Shown here piece after piece: positions 21,663 to 41,631 of a stretch of 64,000 nt of DNA. Origin of the DNA: Bradyrhizobium sp. CB1015. GTDB taxonomy: Bacteria > Pseudomonadota > Alphaproteobacteria > Rhizobiales > Xanthobacteraceae. Below the pieces are notes generated by a model. The model saw nothing but the letters and a program-made list of their open reading frames with translations. It was not told where the DNA came from and searched no databases. Position numbers and translations under genes: made by a program. Where the stretch lies: assembly GCF_025200925.1 (NCBI RefSeq), contig NZ_CP104174.1:2232001-2296000 (forward strand), in the 5' to 3' direction. The number at the start of each line of letters is the position of its first letter. Positions within the stretch are counted from its first letter, which is position 1.

Positions 21663-21723
21663 GTTTTAGCGAATTGGCGTGCTTTCTGCGCCAGAGCGAT
21701 TGGCGCAACTGTAGAGAGATTGC
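21663..21723 (-). promoter_or_regulatory. Tandem GCAATCGCTCT-type promoter (copy D)
   Basis: In the minus-strand sense, GCAATCTCTCT (21713-21723) and CCAATCGCTCT (21693-21703) are direct repeats 20 bp apart. A TTCGCTAAAAC element (21663-21673) follows 20 bp later as a likely -10. The same arrangement occurs at 30687-30717, 31051-31081, 35243-35273 and 39053-39083. It would drive the tiny gene starting at 21585. Confidence 0.6.
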
Positions 21724-21842
21724 TGTTAGTACGATTGGCTACCAAACAGCGGCCGGATCCTGAAGCGTATTTCTCATGAATAGCGACCGACGCATGACCA
21801 GCACCGAACATACGGGTGCGAAACAACGCCAAACATTATTTT

Positions 21843-23437
21843 CTATTTCGCTCCTGCGGGCGTCAGCGGGCCTGGCGGCGCCGCTCGCATCAGGCCGATC
21901 AGCAGCAGCCCGAGGATCGCAGCCCAGAACGCGACCTGGAAGCCGTCGATAATCGAGAGGACGTTCGCTTCACGCCGCACCAGCGACCCCAGCATCGTCG
22001 TTGCCCGCGCCAGCGTCGTCTCCGCGGCGGCGCTATGCTGGGCGACCCGGCCGGTCATTCGACCGAGCGCCTGCGCCACCTCGCTGTCGCCGGCAGCAAC
22101 GTGCAGGCCGATCAGATGCGAATGGACCTGTTCGCGAACCCGCAGCCATGTGGCCATCGCTGTCGCCGCAACCTCGATCACGTCCAGCCGTAGGACCTGG
22201 ATGTAGGCGACCAGAGCGGTTGCCTGCGCCGGGTTCGAATTCGAGAGCATGAAGATCAGGAGGGCGGTGAAGGTGAAGCCCTGGCCGACGGACTGCACCA
22301 GCGCCATCGCTGTGAAATCGTCTGGCGCCCAGTCGTGCGTGATGCGGGTGCCCATCCAGGCGGCTATCGCGAAGCTCGCCATCCCGAGCAAGGCCACGAT
22401 CCGGGCGTCGACCCGGCGAAGCAGCCAGACGGCGGCGGATACTGTGACTACCAGCGGCAATGCCGTGTAGAGGAGGAGAACTCCGCCGGCCTGCTCGGGC
22501 CGAAGCCCGGCGACAACGGTCAGGAAGTTGGGGACCAGTATGATGTTGGATAGGCTCGTGACCATGTAGGTCGTCAGGGTCAACAGCAGCAGAGCGACGT
22601 TTCGTGACATCAGCACCGTGGGGCTTGCCCATGGCTTCGGGACGATCGCCTCGTTGACGAAGAAGGCGAAGACGAGCGCGGCGCCACCAGCGATCAGCCC
22701 GGTCACGACGCCGGATTCGAACCAATCCAACCTGTTGCCCTGGTCGCAGCCGGCGTAGATCAGGGCAAGACCAGTGCCGAGCAACAGCATGCCGCCCCAG
22801 TCGGCCTGCTCTATAAGCTGCCGATTGATGCCTTCCCGGGGTGTGCCCAGCCAGGTCAGCAACGCCATGAGCAGGGCGATCACGGCGTCCTGCCAATACA
22901 GCCACTGCCAGCCAACATGATCCACATAGAAGCCCACCAGCGACACGCCGGCGTTGCCAGTGAAGGTCAATCGGAAGGAATAGGCGGCGAGGCCGACGAT
23001 CCACCATCGCACCGGCAGATTGTGCAGGACGATCATGATCGTCGCCGGAACGAAGACGCCCAGCAGAAGCCCGTGAACGAAGTGGAGGGTCAGCAGTGCC
23101 TGGTAGTCACGGACGAAGGGAATGGCGAGCGAAGTTGCGACATAAAGCAGGCTAGGCCCAACCAGCACGCGACGCAAACCGAAGACAGTGGCAAGCCAGG
23201 CGGGACGGCGGGAGCGATGAGGATCTGCGGCGCAGTCGCAGTCGTTGCCAACCATGCCCCCTCGTCGAAGCTTAGCCCGAACGCGCCTCTCAGGTCCGGC
23301 AGCCCAAGCGCGAACAGCCGCACGTCGAAGCTCGCGATGAAGGCGCCGAGCAGCACGGCTCCGACGGCGAGCCGAGGATAGTGGGAGGAGCGGCCGGGGG
23401 ATACGGAGCCAATAGTGATGGTTGCAGTCGTCATCAC
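21843..23437 (-). pseudogene. EmrB-type DHA2 MFS transporter split by a one-base frameshift
   Basis: The start at 23437 overlaps the emrA stop (ATGA). The N-terminal frame reads VGAVLLGAFIASFDVRLFAL and EGAWLATTATAPQILIAPAV. Near 23202-23204 the frame shifts, and the rest (AWLATVFGLRRVLVGPSLLY to the C-terminus) continues in another frame with all expected helices. Restoring one base in a C run gives IAPAVPAWLATVFG, the normal family sequence. It would then be a ~530-aa, 14-helix exporter partnered with the adjacent EmrA. It could be a true pseudogene or a homopolymer sequencing error. No other damage is seen. Confidence 0.85.
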
Positions 23438-24633
23438 GCGCCTCGATCAACCCGGATGCGAGTGACGACCGACATGCCCGGCCGTAACCGGTCGACCATG
23501 GGCTGGCCCGGGTCGAAGGAGATGCGGACCGGGATACGTTGCACCACCTTCGTGAAATTCCCGGTCGCGTTGTCAGGCGGCAGCAGGGCAAACGTCGATC
23601 CGCTTGCTGGCGAAATGCGCTCCACACGGCCGCGCAGGCGCACGCCGGGGAACATGTCGACTGTGACGTCGACCGGATAGCCCGGCGCCACGCGCGTAAG
23701 CTGCGTCTCCTTATAGTTCGCCACCACGTAGACGTTCGGCAGGGGCACCACGGCAATCAGGTTGCTCCCGACGTTGACGTAGTTGCCTTCCTGGACCATG
23801 CGCTCGCCAACGACGCCGTCGAATGGGGCCACGATCCGTGTATACCCCAGACGCAGTTGCGCCGTGGTGAGGTCCGCCTCGCTGGCACGGAGCTTCGCTC
23901 GCAGCAGATGCTCCTCGCCGTTGAGAACCTCGAGCTCGCTGCGCTGCGCCTCGATCGTCGCTTCGGTTGCCGCTACAGCGGCGCTGGCGGTGTCATGCGC
24001 GGCCGTAGCCTGCTCAAGTCGCTGCTTGGTGCCGGCGACGCCGCCGCGAAGAAGCTGCTCCTGGCGTTCCAGCTCCTGCCGCGTTTCCAGCTCACGGGCG
24101 AGGGCGGACCGGCCCTGTGCCTCGGCCTGGGCGATGACGGCTCGTTGATGGGCCTTCTGACTCTCCAGCTTGTCGAGAGTGGCTTGGGCTGCGGCGACGC
24201 TCGCCTCCGCCTGGGCGACGACCGCGTTATAATCCGCCGGCTCGATCTCCATCAGCAGTTCGCCGGCTCTGACGCGCTGGAAATCCCTCACCAGAACCTG
24301 CCTGATGTTGCCGCTTACCCGAGCGCTCAAGCGCGACATCTCGGCATGAACCGTGGCATTGTCGGTCGTCTGGACCGCGCTCGCCCCGACCCAGGCGTCC
24401 CAGCGGGCCGACGTCATGAGAACGAGTGCTGCCGCTGCGCCGACAGCCGCCAGCGGTATGATCAGGGGTCTGAGGCCGCGCGAAGGGGTGCCCGGATCGG
24501 ATCCCTTGGGGGCGGACTGAACCCTGGCCTGCGCCGGCCCGGACTCAGCCGCGGGGAGTTCGTTCTCGGCTGCGCTGGCTTCAGCCGGGGTCGCGGCACG
24601 GGCGGCTTCGGAGATTTTTGTGACGGCATTCAT
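23434..24633 (-). CDS. HlyD/EmrA-family efflux periplasmic adaptor
   Basis: This is a 399-aa protein. It has a cytoplasmic N-terminus rich in Ala/Glu/Pro and one membrane anchor (LIIPLAAVGAAAALVLM). TDNATVHAEMSRLSARVSGN, a long coiled-coil hairpin, and APFDGVVGERMVQEGNYVNV with LLPPDNATGNFTKVVQRIPV follow. These are EmrA signatures. The ATG at 24633 has GGAGGG 7 bp upstream. Its stop overlaps the start of the emrB-type gene, so translation is coupled. No TetR lies next to this pair; it follows bdhA by 38 bp in a long minus-strand gene run. Confidence 0.92.
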   Translation of the reverse strand: MNAVTKISEAARAATPAEASAAENELPAAESGPAQARVQSAPKGSDPGTPSRGLRPLIIPLAAVGAAAALVLMTSARWDAWVGASAVQTTDNATVHAEMSRLSARVSGNIRQVLVRDFQRVRAGELLMEIEPADYNAVVAQAEASVAAAQATLDKLESQKAHQRAVIAQAEAQGRSALARELETRQELERQEQLLRGGVAGTKQRLEQATAAHDTASAAVAATEATIEAQRSELEVLNGEEHLLRAKLRASEADLTTAQLRLGYTRIVAPFDGVVGERMVQEGNYVNVGSNLIAVVPLPNVYVVANYKETQLTRVAPGYPVDVTVDMFPGVRLRGRVERISPASGSTFALLPPDNATGNFTKVVQRIPVRISFDPGQPMVDRLRPGMSVVTRIRVDRGA

Positions 24634-24671
24634 GTCGCTTCCCTCCATGTACCTCGCCGGTTCATTGACGC

Positions 24672-25454
24672 TTATCGCGCGGTCCAACCGCCATCGACGG
24701 AGATTGCCGTGCCGGTGATCTGGTCTGCCGCGGCCGAGCACAGGAAAGCGACCGTGCCGCCGAGTTGTTCGGGAGATGCGAAATCAAGGGATGGCTGCTT
24801 CTCCGCGAGAAGCTCCTCGGTGGCTTGCGTCTGAGTGATGCCCCGCTGCGTGGCGATGTCGCTGATCTGCTTCTCGACCAGCGGCGTTCGTACCCAGCCG
24901 GGGCAGACCGCGTTGCAGGTCACGCCGCTTCCGGCGGTCTCGAGGCCGACCACTTTGGTAAGGCCGACGAGACCATGCTTGGCAGCCACGTAGGCCGCTT
25001 TGTGGGTCGAGGCGACGAGGCCGTGCGCAGAGGCGATGTTGACGATCCGCCCCCAACGCTGCTGCTTCATCTGCGACACGGCCGCCGCGATTGCGTGGAA
25101 TGCCGCCGACAGATTGATATCGAGGATGGCCTGCCACTTGGCGGCCGGGAATTCATCCACCGGTGCAGTGAACTGGATGCCGGCATTGTTGACGAGGATG
25201 TCGAGGCGGCCGAATTTATCGACCGTCGCCTGGATCAATCCGCGCACGGCCTCGCCCTTCGACATGTCGGCGCCATCATAGACGCAGCGCACGCCGTGAT
25301 CGCGCTCTATGCCGCTGCGGATGGCCTCGATCCCATTCGCGTCGCCGAAACCGTTGAGCACGATGTCAGCACCGACCCTGGCGAGCTCTCTGGCGATTCC
25401 AAGCCCGATGCCGCTGGTCGATCCTGTGACGGCTGCTACTTTGCCCTTCAACAT
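24672..25454 (-). CDS. bdhA: 3-hydroxybutyrate dehydrogenase
   Basis: This 260-aa SDR has TGSTSGIGLGIARELA, NNAGIQFTAPVDEFP, catalytic Ser in VNIASAHGLVAS, YVAAKHG (Tyr/Lys) and CNAVCPGWVRTPLVEKQI. The last block and LLAEKQPSLDFASPEQLGGT are typical of D-3-hydroxybutyrate dehydrogenase. It interconverts 3-hydroxybutyrate and acetoacetate with NAD. Neighbours on the same strand include acetoacetate decarboxylase and a patatin-like lipase, which suggests polyhydroxybutyrate or ketone-body turnover: release of 3-hydroxybutyrate, oxidation, then decarboxylation to acetone. Confidence 0.92.
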   Translation of the reverse strand: MLKGKVAAVTGSTSGIGLGIARELARVGADIVLNGFGDANGIEAIRSGIERDHGVRCVYDGADMSKGEAVRGLIQATVDKFGRLDILVNNAGIQFTAPVDEFPAAKWQAILDINLSAAFHAIAAAVSQMKQQRWGRIVNIASAHGLVASTHKAAYVAAKHGLVGLTKVVGLETAGSGVTCNAVCPGWVRTPLVEKQISDIATQRGITQTQATEELLAEKQPSLDFASPEQLGGTVAFLCSAAADQITGTAISVDGGWTAR

Positions 25455-25466
25455 GGCAGATTCCTT

Positions 25467-25871
25467 TCAACCTCGATCTTGCAGTGGAAGCTTGCGGTCC
25501 GTCCGCATGGCCTGCGATTCAATCCTCGGACGATTTATTCGCTTTTGACTCGCGTCCGACCCGATCAGCACGGGAGGTTCGTCGTACCCGTTGCGACTGC
25601 TGTAGAAGATGAGGGTCATGAGCCCGCATCCGACGATGAGCGAGAAGAGCACGCCGGCAGCCATGGCGAAGTAGCCGGCTGCCGAAACCTCGACCCCGTC
25701 AGCAAGCGTCCAGCCGACGTAGGCGACGAAATCGGTCGCCACCAGAAGCAGGACGAGCACCAGGATGATCGTCCATGAGGCGGCGCCGGAACGTGCCGGA
25801 GCAGAGCGTCCGGCGAGCGGATGAAGCTCCGTCGTGGCGTTCTTCTCGGGAGCATCGGAAGGGATACGCAT
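25467..25871 (-). CDS. Two-helix membrane protein of unknown function
   Basis: This is a 134-aa protein with two predicted transmembrane helices, ASWTIILVLVLLLVATDFVA and GYFAMAAGVLFSLIVGCGLM, a polar N-terminus and a basic C-terminal tail. I do not recognise a family. It lies 12 bp upstream of bdhA and 33 bp downstream of the patatin gene, all on one strand, so it is probably cotranscribed with the 3-hydroxybutyrate genes. Confidence 0.7.
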   Translation of the reverse strand: MRIPSDAPEKNATTELHPLAGRSAPARSGAASWTIILVLVLLLVATDFVAYVGWTLADGVEVSAAGYFAMAAGVLFSLIVGCGLMTLIFYSSRNGYDEPPVLIGSDASQKRINRPRIESQAMRTDRKLPLQDRG

Positions 25872-25904
25872 AGTGTTCTCCTGATCTAAGCGCGACGCGA
25901 AAGT

Positions 25905-27080
25905 TCAATCGCGGCGATGGATGTCGTGGGTGACGATGCCGAGCTCGGGCGGCGGCGGATCGAGGCGCCGTCCGTCGGCGAGCGTGCGGCGGATGTCTTC
26001 CAGCCCGCTCTGCCAGTGGGCGCGCATCGCGCTCAGTCCGAACTCGTAGTCCCTCGAATGGCCTTCGTGGAGCTTGGTCTGGTAGATCAGGTGGATGATG
26101 TTGTGGGAGCGATGGCGGGCCATATCCGCGATCGCGCGGATTTCCGGATCCTTCTTGGCGGCCTCGGGCAGTCGCTCGATTACCCGCTTCAGCGCCTGAC
26201 GCATTTTCTGCATGCGCAGCGCCTGGTCGGTGACGGCGCGCGTGCGGCTCGAATATTGAATGTCCTTCTGCCGGCTCGATACATCCATCATGTCGTAGGG
26301 AACGCGGCCTCTGGCCGACCAAAGGTCGATCTGGAACGTCAGAGTGTCGCGCGGTTCGCCGGACAGCACGCGTGACAAGGGTGTGTTGGAGACCACGCCG
26401 CCATCCCAGTAGTGCTCGCCCTCGATCTCGACGGCAGGAAACCCGGGCGGCAGGGCGCCGGAGGCCATGAAGTGCTTCGGGCAGAGCCGGCGTTCGGCGG
26501 TGTCGAAATACGTCAGGTTGCCGGTGCGGACGTTGACCGCGCCGACGCTGACGCGCACCTCGCCGGAGTTCAGCCGGTCGAAATCGACGAGCGTCTCCAG
26601 CGTCCGGTGCAGGGGCGCGGTGTCGTAGAAGCTGGTCGCCGCATCGCCCGAGAACGGCGAGAAAAGGGGAGAAGGGAAGCGCGGCCGGAAGAAGCCGGGC
26701 TGACCCTGAAACAGCGCCCGCATCGCCGCCAGCGCATTGCGGATCGAGTGTATGTCGAAAGCGAAAGGCAGGGCATTGGCCAGTCCTTCCCCGGCCGGCC
26801 ATTCGATCGACTGGGCGCAGATGATCTCCCAGAACTCGCGCAGGCGTTCCACGCGCTCTTCTTCCGGGGAGCCGGCGATGATGGCAGCGTTGAGTGCGCC
26901 GATCGAAATGCCGGCCAGCCAGTTCGGCCGGATCCCGGCCTCATGCAGGCCCTCATAGACGCCGGCCTGATAGGCGCCGAGCGCGCCGCCACCCTGCAGG
27001 ACCAACGCCACGACGTCGTAGGGCAGTGACCGGGTCTGCTGCGCTACCGGATAAGTCTGTTCGCGCATCACGTTCAACAT
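25905..27080 (-). CDS. Patatin-like phospholipase/hydrolase (paralogue of 40297-41574)
   Basis: This 391-aa patatin-fold hydrolase has oxyanion loop LVLQGGGALGAYQAG, nucleophile Ser in GISIG, and Asp of the dyad in YWDGGVVSNTP. The C-terminal part includes RQKDIQYSSRTRAVTDQALR and IIHLIYQTKLHEGHSRDYEF. Patatins hydrolyse acyl esters; with adc and bdhA beside it the substrate could be a storage polyester or lipid, but this is inference. The ATG at 27080 has AAGGAG 7 bp upstream. The same patatin-adc pair occurs at 40297-42369. Confidence 0.9.
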   Translation of the reverse strand: MLNVMREQTYPVAQQTRSLPYDVVALVLQGGGALGAYQAGVYEGLHEAGIRPNWLAGISIGALNAAIIAGSPEEERVERLREFWEIICAQSIEWPAGEGLANALPFAFDIHSIRNALAAMRALFQGQPGFFRPRFPSPLFSPFSGDAATSFYDTAPLHRTLETLVDFDRLNSGEVRVSVGAVNVRTGNLTYFDTAERRLCPKHFMASGALPPGFPAVEIEGEHYWDGGVVSNTPLSRVLSGEPRDTLTFQIDLWSARGRVPYDMMDVSSRQKDIQYSSRTRAVTDQALRMQKMRQALKRVIERLPEAAKKDPEIRAIADMARHRSHNIIHLIYQTKLHEGHSRDYEFGLSAMRAHWQSGLEDIRRTLADGRRLDPPPPELGIVTHDIHRRD

Positions 27081-27109
27081 TGCAGGGCTCCTTGGATGGT
27101 GATGACGGT

Positions 27110-27910
27110 TCAACCGGCGTCGGCTCCGATCAGGATTTCGGAAACAGTCTCCCGCGAGCGCGCCACCGCGGCCGGACTGAGATAGTCGTGGACCACGGCG
27201 CCGAGCCCGAGCGTGAGATCGGCAACGACGTGCTTTGCCGACAGCACCTGCAGTACCGGCAGCTCCGCGACTGGCGCAAGCGCGTGCGAGTGGAGGTCGA
27301 GCGCAGCCGGGCCGGTCCATGCGCCTTTCACGGCGATATCCTCGCAGTGGTAGCGGACCAGCTCGCAGATGCGCGCGGTGCCGTCGACATGCGGAATGAT
27401 CTTGAGCAGGAAATTCGGCGCGGCGAGTTTCTTTGCCTCGGTTGCGGCGTCGAGGGCGCGATGCTTGTAGCCCATCGTGCCGGTCGCGATGCGCACCGAG
27501 CCGTAGTTCAGCGTGCCGACCAGCGTGTCGATCTCGACGGCGAGCTTGGGCTCTGCCAGCTTCTTGGGAAAACCCCACAGCTCGCGTCCGCCCGCGATCG
27601 GCGGATGATCGTTGAGGAACATCTGGTGGACGAAGCTGCCGCACTGGCCGCGAAACGAGACCGGGATGACCTGGCCACTCTCGGTGTAGTCGCCGAACCC
27701 GGTGGAGTCGGGCATCCGGATGAATTCGTAATTCACCACTGGCTCGGACACTTCCAGCGGCTCGGGCACGATGCGGCGCAATGCCTCCGGATCGGTGCGG
27801 TATTGGATGATGAAGTATTCGCGGTTGACGAACCGGTAGGGGCCGGGCGGAAAGGCCGGATTCGTCAACGGCATGGCGAACGCCCCCGTGCGCACGGTCT
27901 CGTGTTTCAT
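27110..27910 (-). CDS. adc: Acetoacetate decarboxylase (paralogue of 41632-42369)
   Basis: This is a 266-aa protein. The Schiff-base region [15 protein letters not shown] places the catalytic Lys at 116/117, close to Lys115 of the clostridial enzyme. Other family blocks are [20 protein letters not shown] and [20 protein letters not shown]. It converts acetoacetate to acetone and CO2. The ATG at 27910 has GGAG upstream; a TTG at 27919 is too close to that site. It sits 29 bp before the patatin gene. The second adc in the window is alike over nearly the whole length. Confidence 0.92.
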
Positions 27911-27979
27911 CGTCGTCAAGCTCCAGATTGATCCAAGTGAAAGGGCCGCGCCCCGCGTTCGAAACGCGGCCGATAGCAG

Positions 27980-28895
27980 TCAATAGTCCCAGGCGGCCGG
28001 CACCCAGCGGAAAGCGTCGCCGGCAACCGCCACATGTCCAATGGAAGGGAACGGCATGTGCGTGGCTACCAGCAGACCGCCGGTTTCAGCCACTTCCCGC
28101 AACAGCTTGATGCGAACGCGAACCGCTTCCTCGGGGTCGTGCTCGAAGCCGTTGAACCAGTCGGGGTGTTCGAACCCGACCGTGAACACGAGGTCGCCGG
28201 CGAATGTCAGTTGCTCGCCGCCGGAAGTCACGCGAACGATGCTGTGCCCGGGCGTGTGGCCGCCGGTGCGCGTAACGAGTACGCCAGGGGCGACCTCGTG
28301 CTCATCCTCGAAGGTCCGCAACTGGTTGCGATACTCCGCCGCGAACTTCTTGGCCGTCTTCCGGAGCGCGTCGGGAAACCCGTCCGGCATCGAGACGCGC
28401 GAGAAATCCGGAGCCTCCCCAGAACTTGACCTCGGCGGCCGCCACGTGGATGCGAAGGTCAGGGCGCAGCCGCGCTTTCACTCCGTCGATGAGCAGCCCG
28501 CCAACGTGGTCCATGTGCATGTGGGTCAGCACCACGTCGGTCACGGCTGCGAGGTCGACCCCCGCGGCCTCCAGTCGATGGATGACGTGCCCGGACTTCT
28601 CCAAATCCGGAAACTCCGTTCCCATCCCGGCGTCGATGAGGATGGTCCGGTTGCCGCTGCGCACCACGACCACGTTCAGCGCCCAATCGAACGCGTCCGG
28701 CGGCAGGAAATTCTCCTTCAGCCAGGCCGCCCGCACCGCCGGTTCGGCATTGTGGGCCAGCATCGCACCGGGCAGCAGCAGCACGCCATCGCTGACCACC
28801 ATCACGTCAATGTTGCCGATCTTCAGCGCGTAGCGCGACGGGACCAACTCGTCGACCTTTGATCCAGCGGAGGGTGAAGTCATGGGCAGGTTCAT
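27980..28895 (-). pseudogene. MBL-fold metallo-hydrolase interrupted by a one-base frameshift
   Basis: The N-terminal frame (from ATG 28895, GGGAG upstream) reads YALKIGNIDVMVVSDGVLLL and contains the zinc motif THMHMDHVGG. After EVKFW the frame is lost at a run of four G (28417-28420 on the plus strand). The continuation DFSRVSMPDGFPDALRKTAK, GGHTPGHS, FAGDLVFTV and ATHMPFPSIGHVA lies in another frame. Removing one G gives VKFWEAPDFSRVS, as in intact homologues. The whole fold would be ~305 aa. It is either a real pseudogene or a homopolymer error. It is cotranscribed with adc and the flavoprotein. Confidence 0.82.
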
Positions 28896-28988
28896 GTTCG
28901 TCTCCCGTTTCATGTATGGCTGCTGGCTGGTTTCCCTGGAGCAGGCCGCGCAGCCAGCACGGAGCGCGGCCCGTTTCGCGTGAAGGGT

Positions 28989-30206
28989 CTAGAGGAAGCC
29001 AGTCACGTCGGTCACACGCTCCGGATCGGCCGAGGCAAGCGCGGCGGCGCGCTGGGCCTTGGGCGGATAGATCCAGACGGTGTTGATCTCCTGCTTGGTC
29101 TTCTTGGCAACGTCGCCGACCATGGCCACCTTGCGTTCCCAGCCGGTCGTGAAGAGCGCACCGGCCTCGCCAAGGTCCAGGCAGGTCACGTAACCCTTCT
29201 GGTGGTAGCGTTTGGTTGGGACCCCCAGCAGCTCCGCGGCAGCGTTATTGCCAGCGAACGCGCCCATGCGCGTGGCATGCTGGCAGGACATCAGCGCGTA
29301 GTTGCCGTCGCTGTCGCAGGCGGCGCGCGCGGCGTCGCCGGTGGCAAAGACGCCGTCAACTCCCGGTACGCGCAGATCGCGGTCGACCAGCAGCCGGCCG
29401 AAATTGTCGCGTTCGGCAGGAATCTGCTGGGTCAAGGGTGCGGCGCGAATACCGGCCGCCCAGATTACGGTCTCGCTTTCGATGTGCTCGCCGCTGGAGA
29501 GCGTGACGCCCGACCCGTCGAGCGAGGCGACGCCGGCACCTAGCCGCGTCTCCACGCCGAGCTTGCGCAGGGCGTCCTCGATGACGGGGCGGGGCCCTTC
29601 GCCCATGTCGGGAGCGATCGCAGAATTGCGGTCGACGATGATGACGCGCGGCTTGGCGTCCTTGCCGAAGATCTCGCGCAGCCGCGCCGGCATTTCGGTT
29701 GCGGCCTCGATGCCTGTGAAACCGCCGCCCGCCACGACGACGGTATCGCGGCCGTTCACGGCCGGGCGCTTGGCGAGGCCTTTCAGGTGCTTGTCGAGCG
29801 CTACCGCATCATCGAGCGAGTCGACGGCATAGCCGTGCTCGGCGAGCCCCGGAATCTTCGGACGGAACAGTTTGCTGCCGGTGGCCACGACCAGGCGGTC
29901 GTAGGACAGCGTCTTCCGCGGTCCCTTGCTAGTTGCGATCTGCACCGTGCGTGACTTGGTGTCGATCGTCTCGGCGCTGCCCTGCACGTAGTTGACGTCG
30001 ACCGCGTTGAGGACATCCAGCAGCGGCGCCGTCAGGGTCTCCGGCTTCCGCTCGTAAAGCCGCGGGCGGACGACGAGCGTCGGCTCCGGCGCGACCAGCG
30101 CGATCTCGAGCTCTTCCGGCGAAACGCCCTGGATGTCGCGCAGGCGGGCGGCGGAGAGGGCGGCGTACATGCCGGCGAAGCCGGCGCCGATGATGACTAA
30201 TCTCAT
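28989..30206 (-). CDS. NDH-2-like NAD(P)/FAD-dependent oxidoreductase
   Basis: This is a 405-aa flavoprotein. The FAD-binding motif is MRLVIIGAGFAGMYAALSAA, the NAD-binding motif VVVAGGGFTGIEAATEMPAR, and the second FAD region VDGVFATGDAA. It resembles type II NADH:quinone oxidoreductases, which oxidise NADH at the membrane surface without proton pumping; it lacks an obvious C-terminal membrane helix. The ATG at 30206 has AAGGAG 8 bp upstream. It heads the MBL-adc-patatin-bdhA-emrAB gene run, so it could recycle NADH formed by BdhA. Confidence 0.88.
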   Translation of the reverse strand: MRLVIIGAGFAGMYAALSAARLRDIQGVSPEELEIALVAPEPTLVVRPRLYERKPETLTAPLLDVLNAVDVNYVQGSAETIDTKSRTVQIATSKGPRKTLSYDRLVVATGSKLFRPKIPGLAEHGYAVDSLDDAVALDKHLKGLAKRPAVNGRDTVVVAGGGFTGIEAATEMPARLREIFGKDAKPRVIIVDRNSAIAPDMGEGPRPVIEDALRKLGVETRLGAGVASLDGSGVTLSSGEHIESETVIWAAGIRAAPLTQQIPAERDNFGRLLVDRDLRVPGVDGVFATGDAARAACDSDGNYALMSCQHATRMGAFAGNNAAAELLGVPTKRYHQKGYVTCLDLGEAGALFTTGWERKVAMVGDVAKKTKQEINTVWIYPPKAQRAAALASADPERVTDVTGFL

Positions 30207-30253
30207 GTGTTTTGCTCCTTGGTTTGGACTTCCGAAAGTCCGCGCGCTACCGC

Positions 30254-30277
30254 CGCCGCCCTTCACCAAGGGCGGCG
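30254..30277. terminator. Strong GC hairpin between the small gene and the flavoprotein gene
   Basis: CGCCGCCCTT and AAGGGCGGCG are perfect 10-bp arms around a CACC loop. A second small hairpin (GGACTT-CCGA-AAGTCC, 30226-30241) lies nearby. Neither is followed by a T-tract on either strand, so this could be a pause or terminator structure after the gene at 30320-30622, or a leader structure of the gene starting at 30206. Confidence 0.4.
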
Positions 30278-30319
30278 ATCGACGACGACGCGAAGGCGTG
30301 AAACGAGGGCGTCAGCCCG

Positions 30320-30622
30320 TTATGGGGGGAGGCACTCCGGCGAGCGCGCTGACATCGGAGACTTCAGCGACCAGCCTTGTCGGAGAACGACGGGCTGAGC
30401 CGAGCCCAGAACCCAATCCTGGTAGGGCAGCGAAGGGCGGTCCCTGGTCATGACGGAGATCCCGGGATAGGTCCTCTGCAGGGATTGCACCGGGATCTCC
30501 ACCTCCTCGCCCGTTGCTGAGGTGAAGCGCACGGCCAGCGAAAGTCCGTACACGATCGCTGTGGCAAGGCCGCGCCGGCGCGACGTGATTGCAAGCTGGT
30601 TGATGAAGGTTTTCCGGATCAT
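30320..30622 (-). CDS. Small protein (100 aa) sharing its leader with 30720-30983
   Basis: The protein begins MIRKTFINQLAITSRRRGLA and has SLAVRFTSATGEEVEIPVQS and a Pro-rich tail; no family is recognised. The first codons resemble those of the neighbouring gene (MIRKSTVNSRAIALNF), and both start codons lie 65-68 bp from a tandem GCAATCGCTCT promoter. This suggests that promoter plus leader was duplicated and attached to different downstream sequence. Protein reality rests on this conserved promoter and start. Confidence 0.5.
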   Translation of the reverse strand: MIRKTFINQLAITSRRRGLATAIVYGLSLAVRFTSATGEEVEIPVQSLQRTYPGISVMTRDRPSLPYQDWVLGSAQPVVLRQGWSLKSPMSARSPECLPP

Positions 30623-30650
30623 CGTCGATCTCCACCGGCGTTCGTTGGAC

Positions 30651-30717
30651 GGTGATGGTCTAGTCCGTCTCGCGTACCGCTGCCCCAGAGGGATTGCCGT
30701 ACATGTCGAGCGATTGC
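30651..30717 (-). promoter_or_regulatory. Tandem GCAATCGCTCT-type promoter (copy A)
   Basis: In the minus-strand sense the repeats are GCAATCGCTCG (30707-30717) and GCAATCCCTCT (30687-30697), exactly 20 bp apart. They are followed 21 bp later by GGACTAGACCATC as a likely -10 region. The start codon of the small gene at 30622 is 65 bp from the inner repeat. Confidence 0.6.
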
Positions 30718-30719
30718 TG

Positions 30720-30983
30720 CTAATGAACGCGTTTGCGCCGGTCGCTCGGGACTGGGTCAGTTTCCAGCCAGGGCTGATGCTTGGCGCGCCACTTGGGTCC
30801 GGGGCCGCGCATGTAGTGCAGCTCGGGCCGGTAGCTGTCGCGGATGTCCATGACCAGGTTGCGGACGACGCCTGCGAAGTCGGAGACTGTCTCAGCCGTC
30901 TTGCTGGCGAAATCGGAAACTGCGGACCAATGCGAGAAATTCAGTGCTATCGCGCGGGAATTGACGGTGCTCTTGCGGATCAT
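30720..30983 (-). CDS. Small protein with RDSYRPELHYMRGPGPKWR core (87 aa)
   Basis: After MIRKSTVNSRAIALNF comes a ~50-residue block: AETVSDFAGVVRNLVMDIRD then SYRPELHYMRGPGPKWRAKH. This block is about 75% identical to the 90-aa protein at 57510-57782, whose N-terminus differs. A decayed third copy is at 35085-35178. The protein is soluble and basic, without signal peptide. It is not a family I recognise. Strong conservation between two loci under different promoters argues for a real function. It is preceded by the tandem-repeat promoter at 31051-31081. Confidence 0.7.
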   Translation of the reverse strand: MIRKSTVNSRAIALNFSHWSAVSDFASKTAETVSDFAGVVRNLVMDIRDSYRPELHYMRGPGPKWRAKHQPWLETDPVPSDRRKRVH

Positions 30984-31020
30984 CTTCCTTCTCCATCCAA
31001 TCGGATGTGGGCATTGCGAT

Positions 31021-31081
31021 GATCTAGCGTATCTGAGCCGCGGCCGCCCCAGAGCGATTGCGCTACCTGTAGAGCGATTGC
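31021..31081 (-). promoter_or_regulatory. Tandem GCAATCGCTCT promoter (copy B, the best copy)
   Basis: Two perfect GCAATCGCTCT repeats (31071-31081 and 31051-31061 read on the minus strand) are exactly 20 bp apart. ACGCTAGATC (31021-31030) follows 21 bp later as a likely -10. Periodicity of two helical turns fits a dimeric or AraC-type activator that overlaps the -35 region. The start of the small gene at 30983 is 68 bp from the inner repeat. Confidence 0.65.
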
Positions 31082-31194
31082 TGCCAACTCATGTGCCTGC
31101 GGCAATCGCTTGGTGCTGCGGTCACCTCCTGTGACGAATGTGGCCGGCGAGGAACGGCCCAGTGCGGCTGCGTTAGGAGGACGTCTCGTCCGTA

Positions 31195-31869: not shown

Positions 31870-31923
31870 CGCCTGTCTCCTGTCGACGCTACAATAGAAC
31901 GGTGAGACCACCGTCGCGGAAGC

Positions 31924-32877
31924 TCACCGCATGCGTTTCCGCCAATCGGTGGGGGTCTCGCCGGTCAGCTTCCTGAACGCCGCAGCGAAGGCGGTCTGGG
32001 AGGAATAGCCGAGCGCGGCGGCGACAGAGACGACCGACACGTCGGTATCGCGCAGCATGCTCATGGCTTGCTCAAGATGGTACTGGCGCAGCCAAGCATG
32101 CGGCGAGAGCCCCGTGCTCTCCTTGAAGGCGCGGCAGAAGTGGAAGCGCGACAAGCCGGCGTCGGCAGCAAGCGCGGCCAGCGATACGTCCGCATCGCAG
32201 TCCGAGCGCAGGCGTTCGATGGCGCGACCCAGTACCTTTGGCGACAACCCGCCCATGACCGGTCGGACCGCTGCAGGCGAGCCGGAGTGGGCCGCGAGAA
32301 GGCGCGTGGCCAGAAGGTCCGTCAGTTGGTGCCTGAACAGCGAATCCAGCGCGGCGCTGCCTTCCAGGGCGTCCGCCGCGCTCAGGAGCAATCGAGATGT
32401 AACGGAGTCGGGATGCGCCGTTCGCTCCACGAGGTCGCTGGGAGCGGCTGTTCCGGCTTCACGGGCTACGCGTTCCAGCGTTGTCTGCGGAATGTAGAGT
32501 TGGACGACGCTCAAGGGCTGGTAGATATCCCAGCGCGAGGATGAACCGGCCGGAATGATCGTCACGGTGCCGGGGCGCGTCATTCCGTTCACGAACTCCT
32601 TTCCGTCACGGCGCTCGAACCGGACCGGCTCGGCGGGAAAAGCCATGACGACATGATCGATCATCGGTTTGACGACGTCGTGCAGGGGGTCATGCCTCCA
32701 GAAGGTGATCACACCGCTGGACGGATCCGAAGCCATGCGCAGTGGCGCCATCTTGAGCACGCGCGACATTTCCTCGTCCGCGTGAGGGCTGTGCTCGCCG
32801 ATCGGCAAATCGCGTGGCTGGGTCGGAGGCGCGTCCCGCTGATTGTGCGGAATATCTTTCAAGCGTGGACTGCTCAT
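31924..32877 (-). CDS. AraC-family transcriptional regulator (paralogue of 18464-19411)
   Basis: This is a 317-aa protein. The sensing domain includes RPGTVTIIPAGSSSRWDIYQ and VVQLYIPQTTLERVAREAGT. The C-terminal AraC DNA-binding domain has ADVSLAALAADAGLSRFHFC and AAALGYSSQTAFAAAFRKLT. It lines up with the AraC protein at 18464-19411 from end to end. It is divergent from another, unrelated AraC gene at 33218 and upstream of an atypical SDR gene on the same strand. Confidence 0.93.
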   Translation of the reverse strand: MSSPRLKDIPHNQRDAPPTQPRDLPIGEHSPHADEEMSRVLKMAPLRMASDPSSGVITFWRHDPLHDVVKPMIDHVVMAFPAEPVRFERRDGKEFVNGMTRPGTVTIIPAGSSSRWDIYQPLSVVQLYIPQTTLERVAREAGTAAPSDLVERTAHPDSVTSRLLLSAADALEGSAALDSLFRHQLTDLLATRLLAAHSGSPAAVRPVMGGLSPKVLGRAIERLRSDCDADVSLAALAADAGLSRFHFCRAFKESTGLSPHAWLRQYHLEQAMSMLRDTDVSVVSVAAALGYSSQTAFAAAFRKLTGETPTDWRKRMR

Positions 32878-33217
32878 GGACCGTCCTCGTCGTTGAGGCG
32901 CACCCGGATCGAGCTTTCGGCCTCCGTTCTAGCCGTGGTCGGGTGCGCCGTCTTGCCTGAATTCGCCGTGGATTGTCCAATTCTGAACGGTCGATATGCT
33001 GGCAGGCGCCTAAAATCGCATTCCATTGGCGCAGCCGGCCATGGTCCATGCACGGGGCGCTGCGCACGAGATGGTCAGCACCGCTGACGTTCTTACGTGT
33101 CTCGGACGGCGGTGAAGCTTCGACGAAGCTGGACGACCGCTTTCCGAGGGCCGATAGTCCATGCACGGTGCGGGGATGACGACATCCGCCGCCCGGCGCG
33201 ACCAGCAGGACCGGCCA
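32878..33217. other. Divergent promoter region between two AraC genes
   Basis: About 340 bp separate the starts of the AraC genes at 32877 (minus) and 33218 (plus). No gene is supported here. The plus-strand regulator could start earlier (ATG at 33161 or 33176). I did not find a convincing palindrome or tandem repeat. Confidence 0.35.
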
Positions 33218-34147: not shown

Positions 34148-34161
34148 GAAGCTTGGTGAGG

Positions 34162-35025
34162 TCAGCCCCCTCCGATCCGTGAGGCGGCGTAGGCGGCGCA
34201 GCGGGCCGCAAATACCTCGTCGGGCGGATGCCCGATGCCTTCGGCGAGATTTGCCGGATCGAAGGCCAATCCGTTCCACACCTCGTTCGTCTCCAAACCA
34301 GTGATGACGATCGTGCCCAGCCGCACCGCTTCGCGCTTGTCCTCGTCCGGCCAGCGGATGGCGACGTCCATGATCGGGTCGCCCGGACGATCGAGCACCG
34401 CCATCACGCTGAAACGGACATCGCGTGCCGCGATGCGCAACTCGAGGTCATCTTTTAGGACGCCGGCGAGCGTTGTCCTGGCCTCGTCCTCGGTCACCGT
34501 GACCTGCGCGCCGACCGGCTCGACCTTAAACTTGATGAAGCGGGTTTCGCCCTTGGCATTTGTCGCGCGAAACGCGTGTACGCCCCAAAAGGTAGTGCGG
34601 GCAAAACTCCCCCGCTGGGCCCCGGCGGTGGGAAATCTCGTCCGACGGGGCTTTTCGCCGTTGGCGGAGGATAACGTATTGACTTTCGGGTCCGACCTGC
34701 CAGTTGATCCGGACATGCCCCTCCCTACGAAAGGCAGCATATGTTCGAGCATTCTCGCACCGTGAATTGGGGCGCTCTGCGTGAGGATGTCCGACCGCCG
34801 ATCGACGTCTCCGAGCCTGAAAGCGAAGCCTCGCAGCACTCCATTCTCGGCGTCCGCCGTTGCGGGAAAGCCATCGTCCGCCGAGAATTGCGCCAGCACG
34901 CGCGATGGTCTTGTGAAGCTCAGCGATCTGGTGATCTCTGCCGCCCGCTCCGAGGGGAAATAGGTCCCGCGGACGCATTGGCCCTCTTCGGAAACCGCGC
35001 GCCGTCTTGGTGAAGGCCTGGTCAC
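34162..35025 (-). pseudogene. 5'-truncated catalase-related peroxidase
   Basis: The sequence matches catalase-family peroxidases from CVRGTYFPSERAAEITRSLS onward: FTRPSRVLAQFSADDGFPAT, RSDILTQSAPIHGA, TTFWGVHAFRATNAKGETRF, DVRFSVMAVLDRPGDPIMDV and EAVRLGTIVITGLETNE. The ~50 N-terminal residues are missing. The segment that normally reads HAKG and supplies the distal haem His reads SEEG here, because the frame differs upstream. The middle (MSGSTGRSDPKVNTLSSANG) is also degenerate. Loss of the N-terminus and distal His means peroxidase activity is unlikely. Confidence 0.65.
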
Positions 35026-35084
35026 AGCAGTTGCGACCTAGAGCTGTTGATCGTATGCGAAATGATCGGATGCCCTCGTGTATG

Positions 35085-35178
35085 GGTTCGGGCCGCGCCA
35101 ATGCGGATGCAATGCAACACGGGCGGGTAGCTGCCGCGTCTATGGTGCGCGGGGCACTATGATGCTTTTCCGGATCAT
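35085..35178 (-). pseudogene. Decayed copy of the RDSYRPELHYMRGPG small-protein gene
   Basis: Downstream of a good tandem-repeat promoter the minus strand opens MIRKSIIVPRAP and stops, matching the MIRKS leader of the gene at 30983. About 60 bp on, another frame reads GSYPPVLHCIRIGAARTHT, a degenerate match to DSYRPELHYMRGPGPKW. The intervening segment is deleted. This is a third locus of the family, now inactive. Confidence 0.55.
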
Positions 35179-35210
35179 CTTTCATCCGTGCGTCGGGCAT
35201 GGACACGGAG

Positions 35211-35273
35211 ATGATCTAGCGGACCGACGGTGCCGCCGCGCCAGAGCGATTGCCCCAGCTGTAGAGCGATTGC
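35211..35273 (-). promoter_or_regulatory. Tandem GCAATCGCTCT promoter (copy C)
   Basis: Two perfect GCAATCGCTCT repeats on the minus strand (35263-35273 and 35243-35253) lie 20 bp apart, with CCGCTAGATCAT (35211-35222) 21 bp further on. The layout is base-for-base that of copy B, including 65 bp to the start codon, although the gene it served is decayed. Confidence 0.6.
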
Positions 35274-35339
35274 TGCCTTTCTTTCGTGTCCGCCCATCCC
35301 GCGTTTCGGTAGGCGGCCCCCCGGCCTGGCTGCCCGAAT

Positions 35340-36872
35340 TCAATGGCTCACCTGCTTCAGGGGGCCTTTCGGTCGCTTCGCCAGCCAGACGACACCCGCG
35401 AAGATCAGAATGAGTATCGTCGCCATCGCGTAGAAATCATTGGTGGCGAGCATCACCGCCTGCGCATCGACCATCCTGGAGAACACGGCGAGGCCGGAGT
35501 CGGCCGGCAGTCCCGGTGGCGTCGCTGGAGTTGTCGCCGGATCGATGATCGAGACGAGGTTGGCCCGGTTCTCCTTGGTGGCATCCTCCCAATATGTGGA
35601 GGTGAGCGAGGCTCCGACCGCCATCGCCATGATGCGAATGAAGTTCTGCAGCCCGGAGCCGTTCGCTACTTTCTCCGGCGGGAGATCGGAGACGGCAAGC
35701 GAGGTCAGCGTCACGAGGCAAGCCGGTACGCCCGCTCCCAGCACGAACATCGCGATCGCAACGGACATGTAGTCGGCCTGCGCGTTGAGATGTGCCCGCA
35801 TGTAGAAGGAGACCGCCAGCATCGCCATGCCGTAGCTGACGATAAGTCTCGGATCTACTTTCGCCATGAGCCGGCCGACGATCGGAGCCGTGATCACCGC
35901 CAGAATGCCCATCGGTGCCGTCGCGAAGCCAGCCCACGTCGCCGTGTATCCCATCATCTGCTGCAGCCAGAGCGGCGTCAGGACGATGTTGCCGAAAAAT
36001 AGGCCGAACATCAGGCCCAGCGACACCGTCGACACGACCCAGTTGCGGGATCTGAACACCGAAAAATCGAGCACGGGCTCTTCGTCGGTCAATTCCCAGA
36101 TGACGAGAGCGACCAGCGCAACGAAGGCCACGATGGCCGAACCGACGATGAACGGGGACGAAAACCAGTCCAGCTCGCGGCCCTTGTCGATCATCATCTG
36201 GAAGGCGCTAACGAAAACGACGAGCAAAAGTAGTCCGACGATGTCGAAGCGCTTGCTTTTGGTCGGGGTCTCGCGGCCACGCATCAACCACCACGCGATG
36301 CTGCCGACTGCCGCGCCGAACGGGATGTTGATATAGAAGATCCAGCCCCAGGCGTAGTTGTCCGAGATATAGCCTCCGAGGATCGGTCCGAAGATGGGAG
36401 CCACCACGGTCGTCAAACCCCATACCGCCAATCCGACGTTCGCCTTTCCCCTCGGAAAGATCGACATCAGCAGCGTGGAGGAGAGGGGGATGATTGGCCC
36501 GCCCACGACGCCCTGCAGAATCCGGAACAGCACCAGCAGGCCAAGGCTTCCCGACAGGCCGCACAGGATCGAGCTGATCACGAAGGCGACGACGCAGGCC
36601 GAGAAGAGGCGAACCTCCCCGAACCGTCGCGCGAGCCAACCCGTCAGCGGGACAGTGATCGCCTCGGCAACCGCGTAAGCCGTGATGATCCAGGTGCCCT
36701 CAGTCGTCGAAACACCGAGGTCGCCCGAGACCGTCGGCATGGCGACATTGGCGATCGTGGTGTCGAGCACCACCATGAAGTTGCCGAACGACAGCGCCGC
36801 GGCCGCCAGCACGAGAGTCGCCCCGCCCAGCGGCGGATGACCGGATTTGCGATGTCTTGTCTCTTCCGACAT
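35340..36872 (-). CDS. EmrB-type DHA2 family MFS drug transporter
   Basis: This is a 510-aa, ~14-helix transporter. It starts MSEETRHRKSGHPPLGGATL and contains NFMVVLDTTIANVAMPTVSG, TTEGTWIITAYAVAEAITVP, FRILQGVVGGPIIPLSSTLL and FGPILGGYISDNYAWGWIFY, all diagnostic of the DHA2/EmrB family. It should export hydrophobic compounds by proton antiport through an EmrA-type adaptor. Its ATG lies 1 bp after the adaptor stop (TAGAATG), so the two are coupled. The TetR gene at 38210 divergent from this pair is the probable repressor. Confidence 0.93.
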   Translation of the reverse strand: MSEETRHRKSGHPPLGGATLVLAAAALSFGNFMVVLDTTIANVAMPTVSGDLGVSTTEGTWIITAYAVAEAITVPLTGWLARRFGEVRLFSACVVAFVISSILCGLSGSLGLLVLFRILQGVVGGPIIPLSSTLLMSIFPRGKANVGLAVWGLTTVVAPIFGPILGGYISDNYAWGWIFYINIPFGAAVGSIAWWLMRGRETPTKSKRFDIVGLLLLVVFVSAFQMMIDKGRELDWFSSPFIVGSAIVAFVALVALVIWELTDEEPVLDFSVFRSRNWVVSTVSLGLMFGLFFGNIVLTPLWLQQMMGYTATWAGFATAPMGILAVITAPIVGRLMAKVDPRLIVSYGMAMLAVSFYMRAHLNAQADYMSVAIAMFVLGAGVPACLVTLTSLAVSDLPPEKVANGSGLQNFIRIMAMAVGASLTSTYWEDATKENRANLVSIIDPATTPATPPGLPADSGLAVFSRMVDAQAVMLATNDFYAMATILILIFAGVVWLAKRPKGPLKQVSH

Positions 36873-36873
36873 T

Positions 36874-38128
36874 CTAACGCGCACCCGACAGATCAATCGT
36901 CGCATGCATCGAGAGGCCCACGCGCAAAGGGTGCCTGGCGAGCTCCTTCGGATCGAGCCGCACCCGCACGGGAAGGCGCTGAACCACCTTGATCCAATTG
37001 CCCGTCGCATTCTGTGCCGGGATCGCGGCAAAGGCCGAGCCGGTCCCGCCGGCAAAGCCGGCAACGCGACCGTGGTAGAAAACGTCAGACCCGTAGAGAT
37101 CAGACTTGAGAAGCACCGGCTGTCCGGGCTTGACGCGGCTGAGCTGCACTTCCTTGAAGTTGGCGTCGACGTACATGTCCTGCAGGGGCACCACGACCAT
37201 GATGGGAGTGCCGGCCTGAACGCGCTGACCGTCGGCAACCCGGCGCTGGTCGACGATGCCGTCGATGGGCGCACGGATCACCGCACGAGCGAGATCAACC
37301 TTGGCCTGGTCCAGCTTTGTTTGGGCAGCGATGACCTCGGGATTCGTATCGACGGTGGTGTCCTCGAACAGCACCTGATTGGCTCGACGTGCGCCGGCGG
37401 CGGCGGCCCGGGCGGCCTCCGCGGCCTTGACGCGGGCCTCCCCCTGCGAAACCGCGGCCTGGGCTTGCAGGACAGCGGTCTCGTTGTCGTCGAGCCGTTG
37501 AACCGTGGCCCATCCGCCGGCCGCAAGTTTTTTCGACCGCGCCTGGTCGTTCAGGGCCTTGGCGAGGTCGGCCTGAGCGCGAGCGAGATCGGCACGTGCC
37601 GTTCCCTCATCCGCAGCGCGAACATCTTCCTGGCCGGCAAGATTCTCGTCGTTCGCGATGATTTGGCGGACTTTGCGCCGTGCCTGGCCCAAAGCTGCCT
37701 CGGCCTGCGCGGCTGCCAGCCGCAGATCCGTGTCATCGAGTTCGACCAAGGTGTCGCCGGCCCGGACATGCTGACTGTTGACCACCAGGACGTGCTTGAC
37801 GGGCGCGCCGACGAGCGGCGTGACTTGGAATACCTCGACGTTGGTGTAGGCGTTCTCGGTGGTTTCGGTGTCTGGGGCGAGGAAGGTCGCCCAGCCCCAC
37901 CGCCAATCCAACTGCGAACATGAGAAACAACCGTTTGCGCCGTTGCCTGTTCTGCACCGGTTGACCTGCGGGGACATCGTCCGCGATGCCGAAGCTCGAT
38001 CCGTCCTCGCCCGGGGGGGCCGCTTTTGCGGCGGGATCAGGCGAGGACTTGGGGAATTGGAGCGCGCGCCGGGGATCGGCCTGGTAGCTCGTGGATGCCG
38101 CCTGCTTCGCGAGTTCCATATTCGCCAT
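36874..38128 (-). pseudogene. EmrA-type adaptor with a one-base frameshift after its membrane anchor
   Basis: The start at 38128 gives MANMELAKQAASTSYQADPR and a membrane anchor LFLMFAVGLAVGL. The frame is then lost at a run of four G (CCCC at 37895-37898 on the plus strand). The rest is intact in another frame: TETTENAYTNVEVFQVTPLV, a coiled-coil hairpin, APIDGIVDQRRVADGQRVQA and IPAQNATGNWIKVVQRLPVR. Removing one G restores FAVGLAVGWATFLAPDTETT, the expected sequence (~417 aa). The neighbouring emrB and tetR are intact, so a sequencing error is quite possible. Confidence 0.85.
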
Positions 38129-38143
38129 CCAAATGGTAATCGT

Positions 38144-38169
38144 CGTTACCGTTGACAGGTAAGGTAACG
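38144..38169. promoter_or_regulatory. Inverted repeat in the emrA-tetR divergent promoter
   Basis: CGTTACC (38144-38150) and GGTAACG (38163-38169) are perfect 7-bp inverted arms 12 bp apart. A further partial palindrome (GGTA-ACG-TACC) overlaps the right arm. The site lies 15 bp upstream of the emrA start and 40 bp upstream of the tetR start, as expected for a TetR operator. Confidence 0.65.
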
Positions 38170-38209
38170 TACCGTACCGGTCAAGTTACGAATGTTGAAC
38201 GGAGCCACC

Positions 38210-38875
38210 ATGACAGCAGCGGCTCGCTCCAGGCGGCCGTCTCAAGAATACCGGCGCACCGCTATGCTCGAGGCGGCCGCTCAGGTGTTTTTCGAACAGG
38301 GTTATGCCGCGGCCAGCATCGACGCCATCATCGCGCGCATCGGCGGCTCGAAGCGAACCATCTACAACGAGTTCGGAAGCAAGGAAGGCATATTCACCGC
38401 CCTGGTTTCCGAGAGCGCGGACACCGCCCTTGCGGCGCTCTCCGTGGAGCAGTTCGCCGGCCGCAACCTCGGTGAGATCCTGCGCGACTTCGGGCGGCGA
38501 CTGCTGGCGATCTACATGTCGCCTGCCGTCATCGGTATCTATCGATCGATTATGACCGAAGCGCCGCGGTTTCCCGAACTGGCGAAGGCTTTCTACGAAA
38601 AGGGACCAGGCCGCGCCTCAGCCCGCCTCGCCGAGGTGCTGGAGCAGGCAAGGGCCCGCGGGGAGATCCACGTCGAGGACTGCCATGCGGCGGCGGACCA
38701 CTTCGTTGGGATGCTGCGCGACAACCTCCATCTGCGGGTCATCCTCGGATTGCGGCCACCGCCGTCCCCGGAGGAAGCGGAAGCCGCTGTGGCATCTGCG
38801 ATCGGCATCTTCCTTCACGGAATCTATGGCGCGGTACGTCGGTCCGCCCCGAAGCGAGGCGCACGAAGGCGGTAA
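38210..38875 (+). CDS. TetR/AcrR-family transcriptional regulator
   Basis: This is a 221-aa protein from ATG 38210 (GGAG 5 bp upstream). The helix-turn-helix is AMLEAAAQVFFEQGYAAASI then GGSKRTIYNEFGSKEGIFTA. The effector domain includes IYRSIMTEAPRFPELAKAFY and HFVGMLRDNLHLRVILGL, the AefR-like C-terminal type. It is divergent from the emrAB pair at 35340-38128 with inverted repeats between, so it is the likely local repressor of that pump. Confidence 0.93.
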   Translation: MTAAARSRRPSQEYRRTAMLEAAAQVFFEQGYAAASIDAIIARIGGSKRTIYNEFGSKEGIFTALVSESADTALAALSVEQFAGRNLGEILRDFGRRLLAIYMSPAVIGIYRSIMTEAPRFPELAKAFYEKGPGRASARLAEVLEQARARGEIHVEDCHAAADHFVGMLRDNLHLRVILGLRPPPSPEEAEAAVASAIGIFLHGIYGAVRRSAPKRGARRR

Positions 38876-39052
38876 GGGCCGGCGTGCATAACCTCTTCGT
38901 GCTTGGCTACGCAGGCGCCGACTGTCGGATCGGGCGCGTGGAAACGACACATCGCTCGTATCGATCGCACCGATAGCCATGTTGCCGCCAGCGTCCGCTG
39001 CGGACCCTAGTGTACGCGCAAACTTCCGGTGTCGGGCGCGCACATCTTAACA

Positions 39053-39115
39053 GCAATATCTCTACAACCGCCTCAATCGCTCTGGGGCAGGCGTACGCTC
39101 GATCCGTTAAACGGT
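39053..39115 (+). promoter_or_regulatory. Tandem GCAATCGCTCT-type promoter (copy E)
   Basis: On the plus strand, GCAATATCTCT (39053-39063) and TCAATCGCTCT (39073-39083) are repeats 20 bp apart. TCCGTTAAAC follows about 20 bp later in the place of the -10. This is the only copy pointing right; it lies 89 bp before the membrane-protein gene at 39172. Orientation relative to the gene is the same as in the four other copies. Confidence 0.55.
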
Positions 39116-41574: not shown

Positions 41575-41631
41575 GCCCCGGCCCGTGAGAGGCGGCGTCC
41601 CTTCGACACACCGATATCAGGAGCTGCAACG

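Follow-up and report, generated by a model that had tools for sequence, protein, structure and literature searches.

A candidate direct-repeat operator for an AraC/XylS-type activator in Bradyrhizobium

What reads a short DNA word that occurs twice, always at the same spacing, in front of genes of several families? In a 64,000-nucleotide stretch of the genome of Bradyrhizobium sp. CB1015 (contig NZ_CP104174.1, positions 2,232,001 to 2,296,000; here called the window), the 11-base word GCAATCGCTCT is found in five direct pairs with a period of 20 base pairs (bp). These sites are very probably promoters whose operator, a direct repeat with a 20-bp period, serves an activator of the AraC/XylS type, from the subfamily represented in the window by the paralogues AraC1 and AraC2. 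This would provide a precise operator for an uncharacterised AraC-type regulator and would link genes of efflux, lactone hydrolysis, ketone-body metabolism, and redox reactions in a set whose make-up recalls the response to plant flavonoids.

Two of the operators, at 31051..31081 and 35243..35273, consist of two exact words; those at 30687..30717 and 21693..21723 have 2 mismatches each, and the one at 39053..39083 has 3, counted over the 22 specified bases of the paired site. The last lies on the plus strand and the other four on the minus strand, at the coordinates given in an earlier note on this DNA. The arrangement GCAATCGCTCT-N9-GCAATCGCTCT is absent from 100 dinucleotide shuffles of the window. 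When up to 2 mismatches are allowed, the single word occurs about as often as by chance (34 found, 32.8 expected), so that only the spaced pair is informative, and single-word search was rejected as a detection method. A position-weight matrix trained on 82 sites outside the window, one of them from the same genome, recovers the same five sites with scores of 58.8 to 80.1; no other position of the window scores above 0, nor does any position in 40 Markov-1 simulated windows. The complete genome (8.41 Mb) contains six sites and no match to the reversed control pattern.

The anatomy of the sites was derived from 88 distinct examples in the window and 60 hand-picked neighbourhoods. These were picked from genomes up to G090 (G091 to G264 were left out), with low-mismatch and clustered sites favoured, and three overlapping second-register matches (L077 4277, L095 5783, and L056 7560) were removed before counting. 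With the operator start taken as 0, the consensus TAGCA-GCAATCgCTCTaCAgnnaCgGCAATCGCTCT-GGgGCAGccGca...CGcTAgA defines one common architecture, and conservation fades beyond about -40..+65. A TA dinucleotide, which the search did not demand, is found at +55/56 in 85 of the 88 sites. In the window it belongs to a -10-like hexamer, read from the sequence, that starts 22 bp past the second word at all five sites: GCTAGA at 31023..31028, ACTAGA at 30659..30664, GCTAGA at 35215..35220, and GCTAAA at 21665..21670 (all minus strand), and GTTAAA at 39106..39111 (plus strand). The gap of 20 to 21 bp proposed earlier is therefore to be corrected, and the fifth site, previously set apart, has its hexamer in the same register as the other four. 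The region about 17 bp above the hexamer matches TTGACA at only about 2.3 of 6 positions, and the last base of the second word (+30) is at most 2 bases from the start of a 17-bp-spaced -35 element (+30 to +32); the proximal word therefore abuts a poor -35. This is the layout of AraC/XylS direct-repeat promoters, in which the repeats are 20 to 21 bp apart and the proximal one lies at -35 (in the Pm promoter the period is 21 bp, against 20 bp at the window sites). Period 20 is found in 86 of the 87 direct word pairs in the window and the 60 stretches (1.26 Mb) and period 22 in one, with none at any other period from 12 to 40; the stretches having been chosen by a period-20 search, this count mainly shows the absence of additional sites of other periods. 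The architecture supports the earlier proposal of a protein that would read two direct repeats on one helix face beside the -35 position.

Sites inside genes or at random distances from gene starts, which the earlier note held would speak against a regulon, are not the pattern observed. A reference family starts 25 to 420 bp downstream of 83 of the 88 sites (72 of 77 is the fair figure, as 11 sites match their own reference protein), compared with 6 of 88 in the antisense direction, a weak control in that the references were chosen downstream and many upstream sides are taken by AraC. The constant orientation of site to gene is borne out.

At least one match is found in 175 of 265 Bradyrhizobium genomes, which are related and not independent, versus 14 of 265 for the reversed pattern; the largest numbers of sites per genome, among the matches listed, are 11 (G079) and 10 (G054). 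The set is thus far wider than the window across the genus, as had been suspected, whereas the CB1015 genome itself adds just one site. Other named hosts among the matches listed are Reyranella, Tardiphaga, Hyphomicrobium, a record called Sinorhizobium medicae, and a Rhizobiaceae bacterium. In a sample of the order, 23 of 397 genomes have a match, 10 of them from Bradyrhizobium. Five of the 13 matches in other genera (G494, G478, G541, G572, and G608) are credible, with no more than 2 mismatches and a CA-bearing spacer; the remaining eight have 3 mismatches, lack such a spacer, and look like chance.

The candidate regulator is found next to the sites. At 27 of the 88 sites, an AraC gene, always of one subfamily, has its stop codon exactly 2 bp upstream, and 32 of the 88 are within -20..+60 bp of such a codon. 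Among the matches listed from named records, 58 of 125 sites have an AraC end at -30..+80 bp. Conversely, the 61 stretches, window included, encode 47 AraC open reading frames (ORFs) scoring above 200 bits, 15 of them without a full site alongside. The basic unit would consist, in this order, of araC, its stop codon, 2 bp, the operator, the promoter, and the target operon. An inverted third half-site, AGAGCGATTG at -31, is present at 15 of the 32 adjacent sites and at only 2 of the 56 non-adjacent ones; it was not counted as part of the operator because it falls on codons at the end of AraC.

Regulator and site also occur together. With AraC called at an expect value (E) of 1e-60 or lower, 166 of the 265 genus genomes contain both, 9 the site only, 2 AraC only, and 88 neither; the Fisher value of 7e-57 is overstated since the genomes are related. 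Most exceptions dissolve when examined. In six of the nine site-only genomes, the matches lack the CA spacer, as chance matches typically do. Of the pair with AraC only, G085 carries a site with 4 mismatches 2 bp past the AraC stop codon, and the contig of G137 breaks off within AraC. Outside the genus, AraC is present in all five genomes with credible sites and within the same 8 kb in all six named stretches examined (Reyranella, two of Tardiphaga, Hyphomicrobium, 'Sinorhizobium medicae', and the Rhizobiaceae bacterium). The order sample includes two more genomes, G566 and G578, with AraC and without a site at 3 mismatches. In G566 (stretch L245; AraC 66% identical), the same place is occupied by GCAATTCCGCT, present twice with a 19-bp period, both words changed alike, and followed by GGCGCAG and a -10 region, CGCTAGATCATC. 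This repeat looks like a naturally changed operator that could be used for specificity studies. AraC relatives from the wider class (385 genomes), tried as a further source of changed operators, were set aside, as E values of 1e-60 or lower were found only in CB1015 and one other genome of the genus.

The window encodes two members of this subfamily, which the earlier note overlooked as the likely regulators: AraC2 (31924..32877, minus strand; 317 amino acids) and AraC1 (18464..19411, minus strand), 61% identical to it; the genome has three copies, the third at C1:6589133-6590062. AraC2 is a candidate binder on the grounds of co-occurrence, its Pfam matches, and its predicted structure, and AraC1 is the second candidate. 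The C-terminal domain of about 100 residues, with two helix-turn-helix (HTH) motifs, that is typical of AraC/XylS proteins is recognized in AraC2 by HTH_18 (PF12833, 1.6e-26) and HTH_AraC (PF00165, 1.1e-20). Its N-terminal part has no Pfam match. A structural model based on 42 sequences (predicted local distance difference test, pLDDT, 82.6; predicted template modelling score, pTM, 0.56) consists of a barrel, linker helices, and two HTHs: strands at 47-130 and helices at 131-197 form a predicted sensor and dimerisation domain, and helices at 213-316 the predicted two-HTH region. The best Foldseek matches are ToxT, Rns, CuxR, and CsvR, followed by AraC and BgaR domains, with low whole-chain template modelling (TM) scores because the domain arrangement differs. 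None of the named AraC equivalogs listed (FtrA, RclR, SoxS, GbdR, FeaR, and others) claims the regulator: the best 25 of 29 families all score under their NCBIfam cut-offs, FtrA with 65.6 bits against 425 and RclR with 49 against 400. Across 39 members of the subfamily, mean identity is 97% in the recognition helix of HTH1 versus 71% in the N-terminal domain.

Could the operator belong to another regulator of the cluster, namely AraC3 (at 33161), TetR (at 38192), or the CadC-like protein (at 19482), with AraC1/AraC2 as a mere neighbour? The cluster tends toward joint inheritance, and a true AraC3 relative, with at least 61% identity, is found in 23 of the 61 stretches, window included. However, proteins of the AraC1/AraC2 type are found in 40 to 41 of these stretches, CadC-like proteins in 7, and TetR in 3; moreover, the AraC1/AraC2 type recurs beside sites in other genera, and it is its stop codon that precedes the operator by 2 bp in the 27 cases above. 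This alternative is quite improbable.

Several observations weigh against assigning the operator to the AraC1/AraC2 subfamily. In the window, neither AraC1 nor AraC2 has an adjoining operator, and the acting copy could therefore be any of the three in the genome. Inheritance of a single cluster may account for part of the adjacency and co-occurrence. Genomes G039, G116, and G040 (the last with a decayed site) have a site and no AraC of the subfamily; G578, with an AraC 47% identical, has no site. In G566, the recognition helices are nearly unchanged, so that the changed words are not explained by the helices alone. Finally, the -10-like hexamer is a poor match to TATAAT, 2.9 of 6 positions at best.

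Under the AraC1/AraC2 assignment, each site would make up the upstream half of a sigma-70-type promoter that depends on an activator. Two subunits would occupy the direct words from the same side of the helix, with the proximal word adjoining the poor -35, and recruit RNA polymerase to the fixed -10-like hexamer. Transcription would probably start about 65 to 67 bp after the first operator base, in the window near 31015, 30651, 35207, and 21657 (minus strand) and 39119 (plus strand); the N-terminal cupin-like domain may sense a small molecule. The same AraC protein could instead bind the pair and repress, given that the second word abuts the -35 position, but the -35 is on average poor, as expected of activator-dependent promoters, and the layout matches that of the activators XylS and CphR, which makes repression very improbable. 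A repeat that is mobile or structural and does not act as a promoter, suggested by the location of five of the six copies of this genome within 18 kb and by the shared flanks of some copies, is rejected as extremely improbable, with conservation fading outside about -40..+65, a constant orientation to genes (83 of 88, against 6 of 88), and a preserved distance to the -10-like TA (85 of 88). No sign of the mobile repeat that the earlier note had considered was found. An RNA element was likewise rejected, as Rfam yields no match in the window at gathering score.

The recognised targets of the 88 sites include alpha/beta hydrolases, mostly in a short form, a flavin adenine dinucleotide (FAD)-dependent oxidoreductase, AidB-like lactonases, EmrA-like pumps, a catalase-family enzyme, and a membrane protein, the names of lactonase, pump, and hydrolase coming from matches below NCBIfam cut-offs. 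The first downstream family is the short hydrolase form at 33 sites, the alpha/beta hydrolase at 10, an 87-residue type at 9, the lactonase at 9, HlyD at 8, the catalase at 6, and the membrane protein at 2, with six single cases; five sites, the one at 21693 included, have no reference family downstream. The window genes, described earlier as orphans, thus mostly fall into families; only the 44-residue ORF downstream of site 21693 (21451..21585, minus strand) has none.

In the window, a co-directional array of about 9 kb on the minus strand begins at the tandem sites 31051 and 30687, reaches 21843, and probably forms one transcript. Site 31051 is followed by an 87-residue ORF of the MIRKS type (30720..30983), the family counted above at 9 sites, this one included. 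Downstream of site 30687 lies a 100-residue ORF (30320..30622), a short N-terminal form of the alpha/beta hydrolase, 46% identical to residues 7-86 of the full-length hydrolase in L055. Constraint on these short proteins of about 100 residues appears weak at most: the median ratio of nonsynonymous to synonymous substitution rates (dN/dS) is 0.43 for 396 pairs, or 0.50 when only the 94 pairs with dS below 0.8 are counted, in a set from 34 of the 88 sites (30 short and 4 long forms) retained by a sequence filter. Downstream of a site in L076 (9651), a small ORF fuses a MIWES-AIAP start to a stretch similar to the C-terminal part of the FAD oxidoreductase, an apparent deletion fusion. The array continues with the FAD-dependent oxidoreductase (28989..30269) and an AidB-like lactonase gene (27980..28913; below the NCBIfam cut-off) that is split over two overlapping frames, corresponding to residues 9-177 and 173-317 of the L050 homologue, which indicates a frame shift or a sequencing error. 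The remaining ORFs (21843..27919), which have relatives near sites elsewhere, encode acetoacetate decarboxylase, patatin, a short-chain dehydrogenase/reductase, HlyD, and a major facilitator superfamily (MFS) pump. Pairs of patatin and acetoacetate decarboxylase are found twice in the window, in opposite orientation (25905-27919, minus; 40297-42369, plus); L064, a stretch with a site, contains the second type of patatin, with 88% identity.

Judged from its sequence, the catalase-family gene downstream of site 35243 (PF00199; 34162..35025, minus strand) is damaged. Its product, which shares 58% identity with residues 26-292 of the homologue in L046, has a shorter N terminus than its homologues, and the ORF starts 217 bp after the site, compared with 57 bp for the full-length homologues of L046 and L083. 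Site 39053 precedes a 192-residue membrane protein (39172..39750, plus strand), whose homologues follow sites in L077 and L096. Between these two sites, a TetR gene with an AefR-type C-terminal domain is divergent from an HlyD/MFS pump (35340-38875), a layout that presumably resembles frrA-emrAB of B. japonicum.

How may such a regulon gain targets? At AraC-adjacent sites, the bases upstream of the operator belong to the 3' end of araC, which reads PSDWRRRMR-stop or much the same. A matrix built from 27 such 3' ends picks out this sequence, in an unchanged register, at 16 of the 56 non-adjacent sites (p<1e-3); with small shifts allowed, 18 reach p<1.4e-4. Two of the 16 are in the window (minus strand, p=2.5e-5 each). 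At 31082..31119, the remnant reads AAPSDCRRHMS, with TGG at the stop position; at 30718..30755, it forms the C terminus (PVPSDRRKRVH-stop) of the 87-residue ORF. The other three window sites show no remnant with this matrix. Altogether, 40 of the 56 non-adjacent sites are below threshold, all eight HlyD-facing ones among them, and the upstream sequence is therefore dispensable for the operator. Some non-adjacent sites have larger AraC pieces further upstream (e.g., L093 1320, L054 9972, and L040 10277), and several AraC genes without a full site keep one worn word past the stop codon (L095, L083, and L046). The simplest account would be that araC-operator units were duplicated, with either part decaying, and some promoters seem to descend from such duplications. 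That further promoters arose, as a general cause of regulon growth, by duplication of the araC-operator-promoter unit and decay of the araC copy is possible, although we lean slightly against it. If so, the surviving solo promoter would front a new or chimeric gene, sometimes with the AraC C terminus left as the tail of a small protein, as in the 87-residue ORF; all surviving promoters would answer to the remaining AraC, and the 3'-end remnants would be a readable record of how the regulon may gain targets.

In the literature covered (titles and abstract openings, with supplements and most subscription journals outside its scope), no description of this operator and no mention of GCAATCGCTCT were found. 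Three known systems invite comparison. At Pm, XylS binds as two subunits, each with two HTHs, to a pair of 15-bp direct repeats that overlap the polymerase site; the position of two direct repeats near -35 is shared with the window sites, whereas the word, TGCA-N6-GGTA, is other than GCAATCGCTCT and the targets also differ (PMC5481539). CphR of Rhodococcus acts on cphA2A1 through imperfect 15-bp direct repeats at -35 to -69, with a two-base overlap with the -35 hexamer, but it serves a single gene cluster with the word TGCA-N6-GGNTA, whereas the sites described here form a dispersed promoter set in Alphaproteobacteria (PMC6205950). The third is BjG30 of B. japonicum USDA110, a genistein-inducible cluster that brings together genes for acetoacetate decarboxylase, beta-hydroxybutyrate dehydrogenase, HlyD/efflux, and TetR; the authors of that study suspect control by a TetR protein, and the main text names no AraC (PMC4070704). 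The window array recalls BjG30 in gene content, and flavonoids as inducers are only a lead. The layout of an AraC/XylS activator on direct repeats is known; the operator and the uncharacterised AraC subfamily that probably reads it are found together in 166 of the 265 Bradyrhizobium genomes compared.

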